Shown in pieces: positions 7,257 to 30,773 of a DNA stretch of 32,349 bases. Both the position numbers and the translations under genes were made by a program. Position 1 is the first letter of the stretch. The number at the start of each line of letters is the position of its first letter. This stretch comes from Streptacidiphilus carbonis (lineage in GTDB: Bacteria > Actinomycetota > Actinomycetes > Streptomycetales > Streptomycetaceae), in contig NZ_BBPM01000074.1 of assembly GCF_000787775.1 (NCBI RefSeq), forward strand, positions 1 to 32,349. The letters are read 5' to 3'. The notes beneath the pieces were generated by a model. The model searched no databases. It saw only the letters and a list, made by a program, of their open reading frames with translations, and was not told the DNA's origin.

Positions 7257-9608
7257 GTGGGTGAGCAGCCAGGCAGGATGCCGGATCCGGGTGCGGCCGC
7301 TGATCTGGCCGAGTTCGTCGGCCTGCTGGGCGAGTTGCGAGCCTGGGCGGGGATGCCGTCGTACCGGGTGCTGGCGAAGCGTGTCGGGTTGAGGATGCGA
7401 CCGCCGCGCGTCGTGTCCGCGACCACGGTCGTGGACGCCTTCAGGGTGGGGCGGCAGCGTCTGGATCTGGACCTGGTCCTGGCGATCGTCCGTGCGCTGG
7501 GCGTGGATGAATCCGAAGCGAGTCGCTGGCGCGCTTCATGTGTGAGGGTGCACGTTGGCGCCAAGAGCGGCAGCCAGGTGGGGGTGAAGGGCGCGCAGCC
7601 GGTCGAAGGGATACTCCCGGCGGAGCTGTCAGCAGATCTGACTGATTTCACCGGCCGGGTCACCGAGGCCGAGCAGCTGGCGGCTGTTCTGATGAGGACC
7701 CCGTCCGGGCCGGCGGCGCCGGTGGTCCTTTCCGCGATCAGCGGTGCCGGCGGGATGGGCAAGACGTCGCTGGCCGTGCACGTCGCCCACCGCGTCCTCG
7801 AGCAGTTTCCCGACGGTCAGCTGCAGGCGGACCTTCACGGCGCTGACGTACAACCGTCCGCTCCCCATGACGTGCTCGCCCGCTTCCTGCGGGCACTGGG
7901 CGTCGTTCCGGGGCGAATCCCTTTCGATCCCGACGAGCGCGCGGCGCTGTACCGCGGCCTGCTCTCCCGGCGGCGGGTACTGGTCCTTCTGGACAACGTC
8001 AAGGATGCGGCGCAGGTGCGCCCGCTGCTTCCGGGCAGCGGGCGCAGCCGGGTTCTCATCACGAGTCGAAGCACACTCCCAGGCCTGGACGGGGCACACC
8101 GGATCTCCCTTGGTGTCCTTGGCCCTGACGACTCGCTGGAGCTGTTCACCCGCATCGTGGGCCGAGGTGTCGTGGCGGCGGAGTCGGACGCGGTGCGGGC
8201 GGTGCTGGAGATCTGCTCGGGCCTGCCGTTGGCGGTCAGGATCGCCGCCAGCCGTCTCACTGCAGCGCTCGACCCCAGTGCCCGGGAGCTGGCCCGGCGC
8301 CTGGCCGACGAGCGGTCCCGGCTGGACGATCTCATGGTCGAGGACCGGGCGGTCCGGGCGACCTTCGCAGTCAGCTACGTCGGGTTGCCCGACGACCAGG
8401 CGCGGGCGTTCCGACTTCTCGCGGTCAGCACCTGTCCGTCGGTCACGGTCCCGGCGGCTGCCGCCATGCTCGCCCTACCGGCGGATGTCACCCAGCGACT
8501 CCTGGACGCGCTGGCCGGCACCCACCTACTGCAGTCCCCGGCGCCGGGCCGTTACGAGTTCCACGACCTGCTGCGCGTCTTCGCGGCCGAGCGGGCCCAG
8601 GCAGACGAGACCGCGGCTGCCCGGGACGCGGCGCTGGACCGACTGCTGCGTTGGTACCTGCACAGCAGTGCGGCGGCCTCCCGCCGCCTCAACCCGTCAC
8701 GGCGTCATGTCACCTTGGAGGCGCCTGCCCCGGACTGGAGTCCACTGGACTTCGGCGACTACGACCAGGCGCTCGCCTGGTGCGAGGCGGAGCGCGCCAA
8801 CCTAGGGGCTGCGGCCGCTCAGGCGGAACAGACCAGCCGGCATGAGATCGGCTGGAAACTGCCGATCACCATGTGGGACCTGTTCCACAGGCGACAGTGG
8901 CAGCAGGACGGGATCCGGTGCTACGAGAGCGCACTGTCCAGTGCGCAGGCTCTGGGCGACCCCCAGGCGGAGGCCTGGGTGCTGGTCAGTCTCTCCAGCG
9001 GCTACCAGGAGGCTGTGCGGCTGGCCGATGCCGCGGACTGTTTGGACCGCGCCATGGAGATCCGCAGGAAGCTCGGCGACCTCCATGGGCAGGGCTCCTG
9101 CTTGCTCAACCTCGGCTACGTGTACACGGAGATGGGCCAGTCGGCGGAGGCGGTCGGCGTGCTGAAGCAAGCGCTGGACATCTTCCGCGACCTTGGGATC
9201 GCGGCCGGTGAGCTCGCGGCGCGAATCAACCTCGGGCTGGCACTGCAGAAGCTGGGCGACTACCCCGCCGCCGTCGAGCACCACCAGCAGGCACTGGAGA
9301 TCGCCGTGAAGACCGAAGACCCCTTCCACACCGGCAGGACGCTCACGAACCTCGCGGGCGCCGTCTTCCACCTCGGCGACCTCGACGAAGCCGCCCATCA
9401 CGCAGAACGGGCCGTCAAAATAACCCGCGACACCGGCAACCCGATCGACGAAGGCTACGCCCTCGAAACCCTCGGCCAGGTCCACGCCGCCCGCGGCCAG
9501 TGGGCGATGGCCCACCAGCACTGGCATGACGCCCACGCCGTCCTCGCCCCCACCGGCCACTCCCACGCCACGGTGGTCCTCAACCGGCTCACCTCACAAC
9601 CCCAGTGA
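7257..9608 (+). CDS. STAND-type regulator: HTH, NB-ARC NTPase and TPR repeats
   Basis: A 783-residue signal-transduction ATPase with AfsR-like architecture but no SARP domain. Residues ~20-95 resemble the Cro/C1-like N-terminus common in Streptomyces NB-ARC proteins (LRAWAGMPSYRVLAKRVGL...). The P-loop SGAGGMGKTS is near 162-171, Walker B VLVLLDNV at 241-248 (Asp246), and sensor LITSR at 267-271. GLPLA occurs in the expected helical position. The C-terminal ~220 residues are TPR repeats (LGDLHGQGSCLLNLGYVYTE and similar). It is presumably an inducible transcription factor whose ATPase is gated by the TPR sensor. It starts at GTG 7257 behind a GGGGG stretch and is divergent from the lectin gene. 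Some STAND NTPases act in phage defence, but no effector domain is seen here. Confidence 0.85.
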   Translation: MGEQPGRMPDPGAAADLAEFVGLLGELRAWAGMPSYRVLAKRVGLRMRPPRVVSATTVVDAFRVGRQRLDLDLVLAIVRALGVDESEASRWRASCVRVHVGAKSGSQVGVKGAQPVEGILPAELSADLTDFTGRVTEAEQLAAVLMRTPSGPAAPVVLSAISGAGGMGKTSLAVHVAHRVLEQFPDGQLQADLHGADVQPSAPHDVLARFLRALGVVPGRIPFDPDERAALYRGLLSRRRVLVLLDNVKDAAQVRPLLPGSGRSRVLITSRSTLPGLDGAHRISLGVLGPDDSLELFTRIVGRGVVAAESDAVRAVLEICSGLPLAVRIAASRLTAALDPSARELARRLADERSRLDDLMVEDRAVRATFAVSYVGLPDDQARAFRLLAVSTCPSVTVPAAAAMLALPADVTQRLLDALAGTHLLQSPAPGRYEFHDLLRVFAAERAQADETAAARDAALDRLLRWYLHSSAAASRRLNPSRRHVTLEAPAPDWSPLDFGDYDQALAWCEAERANLGAAAAQAEQTSRHEIGWKLPITMWDLFHRRQWQQDGIRCYESALSSAQALGDPQAEAWVLVSLSSGYQEAVRLADAADCLDRAMEIRRKLGDLHGQGSCLLNLGYVYTEMGQSAEAVGVLKQALDIFRDLGIAAGELAARINLGLALQKLGDYPAAVEHHQQALEIAVKTEDPFHTGRTLTNLAGAVFHLGDLDEAAHHAERAVKITRDTGNPIDEGYALETLGQVHAARGQWAMAHQHWHDAHAVLAPTGHSHATVVLNRLTSQPQ

Positions 9609-26828: not shown

Positions 26829-26887
26829 CTCGGTGCCCGTCGCCAGCGGGTGTGTCAAGAAAACGGCGGATCTGCCCTGTTGGATGG

Positions 26888-27178
26888 TTACTTGATGTCG
26901 GTGGGCATGCGGCCTTCGAAGGCGATGGCGAAGGCGTTCAGGGGGGCCTTCCAGCGGATGGTCCAGCGCTTGCGGCCGTTGCCGGTCAGGTCGAGCGACA
27001 TCAGCGCCATGTAGACGCACTTGAGGGCTGCCTGCGGGTTTGGAAAGTGCCCCCGGGCCCGCACGGCCCTACGGATCCGGGCATTGACGGACTCGATCGC
27101 GTTCGTCGAGCAGATGACTTTCCGGATCTCCACATCGAAGGCCAGGAAGGGCACGAACTCGGCCCAGGCGTCGGACCA
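26888..27178 (-). pseudogene. IS256 transposase, C-terminal piece
   Basis: Encodes WSDAWAEFVPFLAFDVEIRK, then VICSTNAIESVNARIRRAVR and the tail to DIK and TAA at 26890-26888. The Glu of STNAIESVNARIRR is the third member of the DDE catalytic triad. It has no start of its own and is the severed end of the transposase whose N-terminal part lies at 29664-30647. Confidence 0.88.
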
Positions 27179-27227
27179 GAGCGGGCATTTGATTGCCCGT
27201 AGTCGTGTAGCTCCTGAGGATTCGCTG

Positions 27228-27611
27228 GTGGTGACGCATCCGTTCCACCCGTGGTCGGGGCGGCGGGTGCGGGTGTGCGTGACGCTGCGCCGCCGGGGCG
27301 GGCTGGTCTATGTGTGCACGCTGGGTGATGGGATCACGGTCACGCTTCCGCAGTCATGGACGGACCGAGGGCCTGTGGCTAACGGGCTCCGGCTGAGCGT
27401 GGACACCCTGGCAGACTTGTCTGCGCTGGTCGATGCACTCGTGCGCCGTGGCGGTGCGCCGGTCCCCGCGGTCAGCGTGGAAGCAGAACCCTCCACGACG
27501 TGCCGCACGGAGGTGACCGAGCGTGGTTCTCGCCCAGACGGTCCGTGCGGCTGCCGTGCCGATGGTGGCGAACATGCTGGAGGCTGCGTGGCGGAAGCAG
27601 GCCGCGGATGA
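27228..27611 (+). CDS. Small DUF5372-like protein upstream of the recombinase
   Basis: About 127 residues. The core VVTHPFHPWSGRRVRVCVTL, then YVCTLGDGITVTLPQSWTDRGP, then LRLSVDTLADLSALVDAL matches small proteins (DUF5372 type) that sit beside recombinase genes in actinobacterial and other mobile elements. Their role is unknown; an accessory or directionality factor is plausible. The tail is Cys/Gly-rich (TTCRTEVTERG..CGCRADGGEHAGGC). GTG 27228 has AGGA upstream; GTG 27231 is an alternative. The stop overlaps the recombinase ATG (ATGA, 27608-27611), so they are coupled. Confidence 0.72.
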   Translation: MVTHPFHPWSGRRVRVCVTLRRRGGLVYVCTLGDGITVTLPQSWTDRGPVANGLRLSVDTLADLSALVDALVRRGGAPVPAVSVEAEPSTTCRTEVTERGSRPDGPCGCRADGGEHAGGCVAEAGRG

Positions 27612-29650
27612 ACGCGAATGCGAAGGTCACCGCCTCGCACCGCTCGAGGCAAGCGATCGTGTATGTGCGCCAGTCGACACTGCTGCAGGTGCGCGAGAAC
27701 ACCGAGTCCACCGCCCGCCAGTACGCGCTCGCCGACCGCGCCCGCGAACTGGGCTGGGCCGACCAGGACATCGTCGTCATCGACGCGGACCTTGGTCTCT
27801 CGGGACGCTTCTCCGGGCTTCGGCCCGGCTTCGGGCAGGTCGTCACCCGGGTCTGCCTGGGCGAGGTCGGCGCCGTGTTCGGCCTGGAGGTGTCCCGACT
27901 TGCCCGCTCGTCCGCGGAGTTCGGCCGCCTGCTGGAATTCGCCCGCCTCACCGACACCCTCCTGATCGACGCGGACGGCGTCTACGACCTCGGCGACTTC
28001 AACGACCGCCTCATCCTGGGCCTGAAGTCCACGATGAGCGAGGCCGAATTACACGTTCTGGCCGGCCGCCTGCACGGAGCCCGCCGAGCCGCGGCCGAAC
28101 GCGGCGACCTGCGGCTGACGCTGCCCGTCGGCCTCCTCCACGACGCCGACGGCCAGACCATCCTGGACCCGGACGAGGAGGTCCGCGAAGCGATCGCGGA
28201 CGTCTTCCGCCTGTTCGAGCAGCACGGATCCGCCCTCGGCGTGGTGCGCGCGTTCGCCGACCGCAGGTTCCCGCGGCGGGACACCGGCGTGTGGGCCGGC
28301 AGGCTGGGCTGGGGCCGGCTCACCCACGGCCGGGCCGCCGACGTGCTGCGCAACCCGGCCTATGCGGGTGCCTACGCGTTCGGCCGCACCGCCACCAGCC
28401 GCAAGGTCCGGCCCGACGGCACCGTCGTCACCTGCGTGAACCGGCTGCCACGCGACCAGTGGAAGGTCCTGATCCCCGACCATCACGAGGGATACGTCTC
28501 CTGGCAGCAGCACCTGGACATTCAGGCGAAACTGGCCGGGAACCGCACCCAGGCCGGTGCCCGGCCGCCCCGCGAGGGTGTCCCGATCTGTCAGGGCATC
28601 ATCTTCTGCGGCTCGTGCGGCTTCCCGATGGGCACCCGCTACCGCCGGGCCGACAACACCGCCGACTACGTGTGCATGCGCGCCCGCAGCGACGCGGTGA
28701 CCACACCCGGCTGCCACTCGGTCGCCGCGGCCGCGATCGACCCGGTCGTCGAACGGCTGCTGCTGGACGCACTCACTCCCGACCAGGTCCACCTCGCCCT
28801 TGCCGCCGCCAGGGACGTCCACCAGCGGCACCACCGATCCCACCGCGCGGCTGAGCTCGCCGTCGAACGCGCCCGCTACGAAGCCGACCGGGCCGAACGC
28901 TCCCTCAGCCAGGTCGAACCGGAGAACCGGCTGGTCGCCCGCTCGCTGGAGGCCCGCTGGGAGACCAAGCTCGCCGCACTGGCCCAGGCCGAGCAGCACC
29001 TGGCCGACCTGCAGGCGGCCCAGCCCGCGCTACCTGAACCCGACCGGCTCAAAGCCCTGGCCGAGGACCTGCCCCGACTCTGGCAGGCACCCACCACCAC
29101 ATCCAGGGACCGAAAACGCCTGATCAGGACCCTGATCGCAGACGTCACCGTCCGGCACGTCGACTTCGCCGACGCCCACGTCGGCATCCGCTGGCACACC
29201 GGCGCGGTCGACGAGATCGTCTGCGCGCGCCGGACCAACCGCACCCCGAGCCAGGCCGTCGAGATCATCCGCGACCTACTCGACACCAGCACCGACGCCG
29301 AGATCGCCGACCACCTCAACCAACTGGGCCTGAAGACCGGAAACGCGCGGCCGTTCAGCGTCGCCTCGATCCGCTTCGTCCGCGCCAAATACGTCATCGG
29401 CTCCGTCCGCAGCGACCCGACCGGGCCCGGCGAGATCACCGTCCCCGAAGCCGCCCGGATCCTCGGCGTCCACGAAGCCACCGTCTATCCCTGGCTCCGC
29501 AGCGGCGAACTCCCCGCCCGCCAGGGACGGCACCACCGCTGGTGCATCCCCTGGAACGACGCGATCGAGCAGCACTGGCAACAGCGCGTCGCCGCCGAAC
29601 CCAGGATCAGACGGCCAAACCCCAACAACGAGAAAGGACAGGCAGTATGA
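27608..29650 (+). CDS. Large serine recombinase
   Basis: A 680-residue site-specific recombinase of the large serine family. Residues ~15-155 are the resolvase catalytic domain with the nucleophile in AIVYVRQSTLLQ (Ser23) and EVSRLARS (Arg97, Arg100). The recombinase domain follows (RAFADRRFP...LRNPAYAGAYAFGR, ~210-260). A zinc ribbon uses Cys334, Cys337, Cys356 and Cys369, then a coiled coil at ~400-475. Unusually, the extreme C-terminus holds an excisionase/MerR-like helix-turn-helix (VPEAARILGVHEATVYPWLRSG, ~615-636). The ATG overlaps the upstream gene's stop. It presumably inserts and excises the 2,485-bp element in which it lies. All catalytic residues appear intact. Confidence 0.92.
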   Translation: MNANAKVTASHRSRQAIVYVRQSTLLQVRENTESTARQYALADRARELGWADQDIVVIDADLGLSGRFSGLRPGFGQVVTRVCLGEVGAVFGLEVSRLARSSAEFGRLLEFARLTDTLLIDADGVYDLGDFNDRLILGLKSTMSEAELHVLAGRLHGARRAAAERGDLRLTLPVGLLHDADGQTILDPDEEVREAIADVFRLFEQHGSALGVVRAFADRRFPRRDTGVWAGRLGWGRLTHGRAADVLRNPAYAGAYAFGRTATSRKVRPDGTVVTCVNRLPRDQWKVLIPDHHEGYVSWQQHLDIQAKLAGNRTQAGARPPREGVPICQGIIFCGSCGFPMGTRYRRADNTADYVCMRARSDAVTTPGCHSVAAAAIDPVVERLLLDALTPDQVHLALAAARDVHQRHHRSHRAAELAVERARYEADRAERSLSQVEPENRLVARSLEARWETKLAALAQAEQHLADLQAAQPALPEPDRLKALAEDLPRLWQAPTTTSRDRKRLIRTLIADVTVRHVDFADAHVGIRWHTGAVDEIVCARRTNRTPSQAVEIIRDLLDTSTDAEIADHLNQLGLKTGNARPFSVASIRFVRAKYVIGSVRSDPTGPGEITVPEAARILGVHEATVYPWLRSGELPARQGRHHRWCIPWNDAIEQHWQQRVAAEPRIRRPNPNNEKGQAV

Positions 29651-29663
29651 AGCCGACTTCCCA

Positions 29664-30647
29664 CAGCCTGACAACGGCCGGATACTTCGCTCCCCAGAGC
29701 TCGCTGAACTCCAAGAACCGCTCGGTGGCCGCGGCCTCGCTGGGCGCGGTGTAGACCGGCCGCAGAGCCTTCGCCATCTTGTCCCAGTCCGCGCGCGACG
29801 CGTAGCGGAAACTGTTCCTCAGGAGGTGCACGATGCACGTCTGGACAATCGTTCGAGGCCAGACCGTCGCCACCGCGTCGGGCAGTCCCTTGAGGCCGTC
29901 GCAGACCAGCATCAGCACATCGTCCACGCCGCGGTTCTTCAGCTCGGTGAACACCTGCAACCAGTGCTTGGCGCCCTCGCCGCCGTCGCCCGCCCAGATC
30001 CCCAGGATCTCCCTGGTGCCCTCGACCGTGACGGCCAGGGCCACGTAGATGGGCCGGTTCGCGACCTGGTCGTTTCGGACTTTCACGTTGATGGCGTCCA
30101 CGAACACCACCGGGTAGACCGAGTCCAGCGGACGCGATTGCCATTCGGCCATGCCGTCCATGACCTGGTCGGTGATGGTGGAGATGGTCTGCTTGGACAC
30201 GTTCGCCCCGTAGACCTCGGCCAGGTGCGCGGCGATCTCGCCGTGGGTCAGCCCCTTGGCCGACAGCGACAGGACCATTTCGTCGACGCCGGTCAGCCGG
30301 CGCTGGCGCTTGCGCACGATCTGCGGTTCGAAGCTGTTCTCCACGTCGCGGGGCACGGCTATCTCGACCGGGCCCACATCGGTGAGCACGGTCTTGGTGC
30401 GGGTGCCGTTGCGGCTGTTGCCGCCGTCGCGCCCGGCCCGGTCGTGCTTCTCGTAGCCCAGGTGGTCGGTCATCTCGCCCTCCAGGGCGGACTCAAGCAC
30501 CCGCTTCGTCAGCTGCTGCAGCAGCCCGCCCTCGCCGGTCAGCTGCAGGCCACCGGCACGGGCCCGGTCCACCAGCATCCCGATCAGCTGGTCGTCCACC
30601 GCCTCAGCCGTCGAAGTGTCCACGGTCTCAGTCGTCACGTCAGTCAC
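29664..30647 (-). pseudogene. IS256 transposase, N-terminal piece
   Basis: Starting at GTG 30647 (MTDVTTETVD, GAGGA upstream), this part has the family N-terminus (LLQQLTKRVLESALEGEMTD, HLGYEKHD), PVEIAVPRDVENSFEP, the first Asp in VFVDAINVKVR and the second in LVCDGLKGLPDAV. It ends at ...FSELWGAKYPAVVRL before the crossover point. As it stands, translation would run on into 19 foreign residues (WEVGFILPVLS...) and stop at 29607. The catalytic Glu is on the other piece, so no active transposase can be made. Joined, the two pieces give a 424-residue protein. Confidence 0.9.
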
Positions 30648-30773
30648 TGGTGAATCCTCTTCCCCAGGCAAGCCATCCGGCTACCTGGCACGGCGGGTGA
30701 TCCGCCGTTAATTCGACACTCCCGGTCCTGGCAACCAGCGTTCAGTCGGAGAAGACGTGGCCGCTGCTATCGC

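Follow-up and report, generated by a model that had tools for sequence, protein, structure and literature searches.

A two-gene serine-recombinase element inserted in frame-preserving fashion in an IS256 transposase gene of Streptacidiphilus carbonis, and the mobile-element targets of its relatives

A stretch of 32,349 nucleotides from Streptacidiphilus carbonis (contig NZ_BBPM01000074.1), hereafter the window, carries a 2,485-bp element with only a DUF5372-like gene and a large serine recombinase (LSR) gene, which splits the transposase gene of an IS256 insertion sequence. The element is interpreted as a minimal integrated LSR element that was moved by site-specific recombination and belongs to a family in which many members are specialised on conserved motifs of mobile elements, a reading to which a probability of roughly 0.85 is assigned. 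A first-pass annotation made from the letters of the window had delimited the element and proved correct; the find is larger than that annotation stated.

The host gene lies on the minus strand and is interrupted between two pieces (Table 1), the first of which ends in VVRLW and the second of which reads (W)SDAWAEF. Both are recognised by Mutator/IS256 profiles, and the matches run on contiguously from one piece into the other, as positions 18-311 and then 311-372 of 379 for Pfam PF00872 and as positions 1-273 and then 276-336 of 338 for the NCBIfam model transpos_IS256. Joining the pieces at the shared CCA by script yielded a protein of 432 aa with no inner stop, which is 84.4% identical to the intact IS256 transposase of a genome from the same bacterial family (G313); the alignment of 417 columns has 2 gap positions, and the lines displayed over the junction are gap-free. 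These results bear out the original proposals that the pieces join at CCA to read RLWSDAWAEF with no base gained or lost and that the target is another mobile element, the common case in the family; the proposed limits and length are likewise correct, the insert measuring 2,485 bp whichever CCA copy is counted, and in intact IS256 relatives no residue is gained or lost at the insertion point. Within 11 kb, G313 has one IS256 copy that is occupied (L052) and another that is empty, with the site sequence CATCGGACCACAGCTTG; the two are only 81-83% alike, which indicates that this is not a fresh event. The site used in the window is occupied at both junctions in L052, at the right junction only in L014 (the remainder being cut or N) and at the left junction only in L016 (the right end being lost), a recurrence that is more than chance. 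The Glu of TNAIES follows the insertion site at a distance of about 27 residues. At the tentative 11-bp inverted ends of the host IS256, no target duplication was seen by eye.

Table 1. Features of the element and its IS256 host in the window
Feature	Position	Strand	Basis
Tentative left end of host IS256, AACGGCGGATC	26862..26872	+	11-bp perfect inverted match to 30699-30709, E 0.041
IS256 transposase, C-terminal part, contains CSTNAIESVN	26888..27178	-	PF00872 positions 311-372
Serine-recombinase element, 2,485 bp plus one extra shared CCA copy	27176..29663	.	Contiguous transposase profiles, gapless junction alignment, empty site in G313
Left junction, shared CCA; most likely core CC = 27176-27177	27176..27178	+	Aligned ends of IS256- and RT-inserted relatives, in-frame join
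DUF5372-like small gene; start GTG 27228 or 27231	27228..27611	+	PF17342 24.8 bits; homologues in relatives
Large serine recombinase, 680 aa; ATG 27608	27608..29650	+	Sequence, Pfam and NCBIfam profiles
Conserved right-end motif GCAGTATGAAGCC, with the LSR stop codon inside; then 6 nt and core	29642..29654	+	Aligned stop regions of relatives
Right junction, second CCA copy; most likely core CC = 29661-29662	29661..29663	+	Aligned ends of relatives, in-frame join
IS256 transposase, N-terminal part, 337 codons, ORF taken from TTG 30671	29661..30671	-	PF00872 positions 18-311
Tentative right end of host IS256	30699..30709	-	Inverted match to 26862-26872

Profile and ORF analysis agrees with the annotation that the two genes are the sole contents of the element. 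They fill its 2,485 bp with no relaxase or other mobilisation gene, so that it does not class as an integrative and mobilizable element (IME), and, as the LSR start overlaps the DUF5372-like stop by ATGA and the LSR stop codon lies within the conserved end motif, the element is almost entirely coding. The recombinase contains a resolvase-type catalytic domain with Ser (YVRQST motif), then Recombinase and zinc-ribbon domains and a C-terminal HTH_17/excisionase-like domain, and passes the Pfam cut-offs for PF00239 (56.3 bits), PF07508 (54.4 bits) and PF13408 (28.7 bits). Its best NCBIfam match, XisF, reaches 61.5 bits against a cut-off of 375, which places it outside the XisF equivalog, and DUF4368 is absent from the window's Pfam matches up to E 0.1, which places it outside the DUF4368 multi-targeting LSR clade. 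The DUF5372-like protein falls just below the curated PF17342 cut-off of 25 bits and matches the annotated DUF5372 neighbours of relatives; an AlphaFold2 model from the single window sequence (mean pLDDT 41.6) was too poor for a fold search. Its frame is open upstream across the junction into antisense transposase, to 27021, and a fused false ORF is possible in gene calling at 27021-27611. One long DUF5372 gene from 27021 was rejected, since homologues share sequence only from (V)THPFHP onward.

That the window copy is an inactive relic seems doubtful. Such a relic would fit the borderline score of the small gene and a genome that has one full copy and, on contigs C52 and C130, broken relatives (on C130 a 487-bp fragment at 92%); on the other hand, the LSR remains open over its whole length and retains the catalytic motif, the right end is conserved, and both host transposase pieces are still open.

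The ends of the element can be compared with those of its relatives. In recombinase sense, GCAGTATGAAGCC followed by six nucleotides and CC forms the right end in the window, in L052 and in L066, L068 and L069, the last three being three of the four aligned sense-oriented insertions in reverse transcriptase (RT) genes; the first bases are different in L110, and L014 reads TAAAGCC. On the left side these loci likewise line up from this CC, by reading of the alignment. The nearest relatives thereby share the window's ends instead of having clearly different ones, and the core dinucleotide is narrowed from the shared CCA to, most likely, CC. Family-wide, 13 of 60 loci have a (T/A)ATGAA motif near the LSR stop, versus 3 of 1,300 random windows within LSR genes; only some family members are marked by it. 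An in-frame join at a named 2-bp core was obtained in all 20 loci tried; more than one such join is possible in 9 of these, and in three of six RT loci (L068, L070 and L110) joining at CC produces Ala in place of the Thr read on the N side, which makes cores other than the window's less sure. For L061, an uninterrupted IS4 relative reads RWEVESTYFAIKK, in agreement with a GA join.

The element ends and the shared CCA are compatible with recombination between attP and attB sites at a 2-bp core. An excised circle would carry an attP made of both element ends, and the LSR, as the presumed catalyst, would recombine it with an attB within the coding sequence of a mobile-element enzyme by cleavage at the core, here CC, in the Trp codon of RLW/SDAWAEF. 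The reverse reaction, excision, would restore the host transposase gene exactly. The DUF5372-like partner may be a directionality or accessory factor, which is a guess.

The window element falls within the Y4bA/DUF5372 family, defined by an LSR with the YxRQS[ST] signature and an upstream DUF5372-like gene. Homologues of the LSR were sought in overlapping draws of 14 genomes of the genus, 394 of the bacterial family, 396 of the phylum and 394 of the class, among which 4, 11, 10 and 11 genomes, respectively, had a match at the set limits (each figure including the window's own genome); among named matches, Streptacidiphilus neutrinimicus (L014) is closest at 93%. A plasmid collection was also searched with the LSR (455 records, 60 among the matches listed), and 13 hand-picked records were taken, plus further copies in three of them. 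In total, 65 LSR loci were examined, window included, 24 of them from plasmid records. Of the 65 LSR reading frames, 58 have the RQS motif at their start, the other seven being cut or frameshifted at the N end. Two relatives came from a scan of a genome-contig collection, none was confirmed in a viral contig collection, and a phage collection searched in near mode gave no match. Outside the 65 stand fragments (G000 C130 and C64, G009 C2 and C4, G010 C1 at two places, G792 C65, G1038 C28 and G784 C280), copies 2 and 3 of G314 (L062 and L063), L174, the copies beside L175 (L141, L176 and L177) and second LSRs within L169-L171, L173 and L179. The window genome (G000) carries a second family member on contig C42 (L066), 57% identical and lying inside a group II intron RT gene; the C42 protein has extra matches to the C-terminal HTH region, and the LSRs of L066, L068, L069 and L107 are among several of 813-892 aa.

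In a tree of 50 LSRs, the window and L052 form a pair (100/100) within a 13-row clade (100/100), in which nine of the other 11 are labelled with the RT motif (some one-sided), one hits an IS481-type gene and one is without a target call. Target type therefore changes between close branches, which argues for specialisation on conserved motifs as a class, with switches.

Host elements and their occupants can also travel together. In G314, an IS4-type element with an LSR element inside is present in three copies at least 99.95% alike, each with its own 8-bp target duplication (GCTTTAGG, CCTAAAGT and CCTAAAGG); a genome search with the C-terminal part found no intact IS4-type copy there, the hits being the three interrupted copies and scraps. 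Plasmid p_1 of Sinorhizobium meliloti RCAM1115 has four composite IS21 copies of about 5.9 kb, 97-99.9% alike, one of them split again by other DNA and three with duplications (TTCGAG, ATCTCC and CAGCT). It also has one uninterrupted IS21 with the empty site RPRRPRDKAKVEAAV, whose two flanks are 99.5% (1,487 bp) and 92.5% (946 bp) identical to their occupied counterparts. Composite copies bearing target duplications indicate that the composites transpose as units, which may involve either transient excision or action in trans.

From the frame-perfect insertion it follows that the host element may be silenced reversibly and the occupant carried along when the host transposes. It is accordingly conceivable, at slightly better than even odds, that this widespread serine-recombinase family consists of hyperparasites of mobile DNA, whose attachment sites are codons of active-site or otherwise conserved motifs and which combine reversible silencing with riding along. 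Their apparent targets would comprise transposases, group II intron RTs, IstB, IS66 TnpB, RepSA-type Rep, tyrosine recombinases and their own kin. A more cooperative version, in which the element is a DNA-level switch of the host insertion sequence whose regulated excision turns the transposase on to the profit of both partners, appears unlikely: it would suit the frame-perfect insertion and the transposition of the G314 composites from a genome in which all three copies are interrupted and no intact one was found, but a lost or related intact copy could act in trans, and an intact IS21 does exist on the RCAM1115 plasmid.

The principal reading, of an LSR element specialised on mobile-element motifs, is supported by the targets. 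Pieces of one mobile-element protein flank the LSR element on both sides in 28 of the 65 loci, and such a piece is present on one side in 24, with no target call in 13; the target sites of related gene pairs, which the annotation had suggested determining, are thus mobile elements in most assignable loci. A profile match was obtained on each side in 21 of the 28 (Table 2), and the N and C matches overlap or lie at most three positions apart in 19 of these, with 12-16 positions between them in L169 and L170. The other seven (L052, L055, L060, L116, L117, L168 and L171) have a one-sided profile at most plus a motif reading; the profile scan gave no family for the N side of L117 and L060 or the C side of L055 and L116. 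Four copies of identical LSR sequences (L165, L168, L170 and L171) are included in the 28.

Table 2. Two-sided target loci with a profile match on each side (end of N piece/start of C piece, in profile positions)
Target	Loci
IS256	Window (see Table 1)
IS3	L057 313/310, L071 316/311, L077 315/313
IS4	L061 292/288
IS701	L059 327/319, L113 328/316
IS481-type	L109 142/132
ISNCY	L073 241/236
IS21 IstA	L165 and L175 227/226
IstB	L076 205/198
IS66 TnpB	L167 45/39
Group II intron RT	L066 72/69, L068 74/71, L069 72/69, L110 72/70, L070 and L072 73/68
LSR (XisF model)	L169 88/105, L170 87/100

The one-sided loci are L014, L016, L053, L056, L064, L074, L082, L083, L089, L092 (RepSA), L103 (ISL3), L107, L108, L111, L112, L114, L118 (phage integrase), L119, L120, L140, L166, L173, L178 (IstB) and L179 (IS66), the calls for L014, L016, L107, L166 and L173 having been made without a profile scan. 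In L107 an RT piece to the left is paired with a piece of an unrelated transposase to the right, possibly through recombination between two insertions. The loci without a target call are L015, L054, L058, L065, L067, L075, L079, L094, L115, L121, L122, L123 and L172; in some of them the contig ends at the element, and L115 seemingly lies by a tRNA-like stretch, as judged by eye.

The insertions fall at recognisable motifs: RWEVE in IS4, RRWVVER in IS5, RRWHVEE in IS701, NPVEG in IS630, CYD..NAAxES in IS3 and K-VE in IS21/ISNCY, at or beside the catalytic Glu. Further motifs are IGxPT in IstB, NRRRD in IS66 TnpB and DGxYDP in LSRs. RT insertions occupy the LGIPT-VxDR block, at profile positions 70-74 in 9/9 N-side pieces and 63-71 in 8/8 C-side pieces scanned for that site, while L074, L119 and L140 use a second RT block. 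On a plasmid of Mesorhizobium sp. AR07 (L169, L170, L171 and L173), closely alike elements are nested in LSRs of the same family at DGxYDP, a form of self-parasitism.

As a control, 66 target pieces were searched by tblastn, own pieces excluded, within 250 bp after the LSR stop. A mobile-element piece lay there in 27 of 51 family loci and in 0 of the 28 LSR loci of the genus counted as non-family (Fisher 2.5e-7, a value that is only a guide since the loci are not independent); the proportion in the family is depressed by the many target families with a single representative. The 51 were reached by dropping L014, L015, L016, L064, L108 and L123, together with eight more loci with less than 150 bp of flank; own pieces were excluded in leave-one-out fashion, with L073, L165 and L175 grouped, but a hit in L168 may still stem from the piece of its near-twin L167. 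The 28 contain L215, actually a family member at the same place as L064, and two loci parsed to short ORFs (L192 and L198), while L199 (flank 72 bp) and L212 (a family locus) were left out. At another place in the locus, eight of those counted as non-family matched a reference, in six cases the RepSA piece.

Loose LSR specificity, with survival only in dispensable genes and targets supplied by plasmids rich in insertion sequences, would remove the need for specialisation. This is quite improbable, in spite of the share of plasmid loci, several with other transposases nearby, of the expected loss of insertions in essential genes, and of a multi-targeting LSR clade described in an LSR atlas (PMC10083194). 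The recurrence of RT insertions in one codon window would not be expected from random dispensable genes, and no clear host-gene insertion was seen in the 65 loci, though the 13 without a target call could hide some.

The rhizobial plasmid pNGR234a provides evidence that the elements move independently of their hosts. A 3,325-bp stretch, 100% identical, interrupts transposases of ISNCY (L073) and IS21 (L165), and an additional 79% copy occupies a third place; an identical element in two unrelated transposases with different flanks implies movement without the host insertion sequence. It is hence highly improbable that the element is only carried within composite insertion sequences, as a single old insertion spread by DDE transposition, and is not itself mobile: the IS4-type and IS21 composites do move as units, but the identical pNGR234a element and the differing targets of close LSRs, with many host families struck, speak against it.

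The Y4bA/Y4pH elements of rhizobia, such as those of pNGR234a, with genes named Y4bA, Y4bB, Y4bC and Y4pH, resemble the window element in the YxRQS signature of the LSR and in the DUF5372 partner (Y4bD/Y4pK = DUF5372), and differ in being about 3.3 kb long with two extra small genes, as against 2.5 kb. Among other known systems, XisF of the fdxN element is a serine recombinase that excises DNA and thereby restores a gene; here that gene would encode a transposase. Inteins and homing introns also occupy highly conserved protein motifs and are removed after transcription or translation, whereas removal of the window element would be possible at the DNA level only. Serine-integrase IMEs within Tn5252-type ICEs (PMC5704250) sit inside the genes Maff2, SNF2 and traG and are likewise LSR elements internal to another mobile element's gene; they are tabulated there with replication-type genes and few ICE target genes, whereas the window element has two genes only and its family uses transposases, RTs and the like. 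The LSR atlas (PMC10083194) reports conserved internal target sites and a 2-bp core logic comparable to those of the window, with targets such as Mg chelatase, prolyl isomerase and competence genes, and a multi-targeting clade commonly with DUF4368, for which the window LSR has no match.

The window element thus adds a member to a family for whose choice of targets the titles and abstract openings of the open-access papers listed gave no description. This habit explains why LSR genes of the Y4bA/DUF5372 type lie among broken transposases, and the comparison yields ends and likely cores for about 20 elements, which are ordinarily hard to see. It further directs attention to natural LSRs whose sites lie in highly conserved sequence and which may serve as integration tools, and raises the question of whether recombinase parasites hold off and release insertion sequences in nature; if true, the hyperparasite family would be a DNA-level counterpart of inteins. 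As a minor observation, L116 has four CRISPR-like 31-nt repeats with 61-nt spacing (7335-7548), near an IS630 split by a family member.
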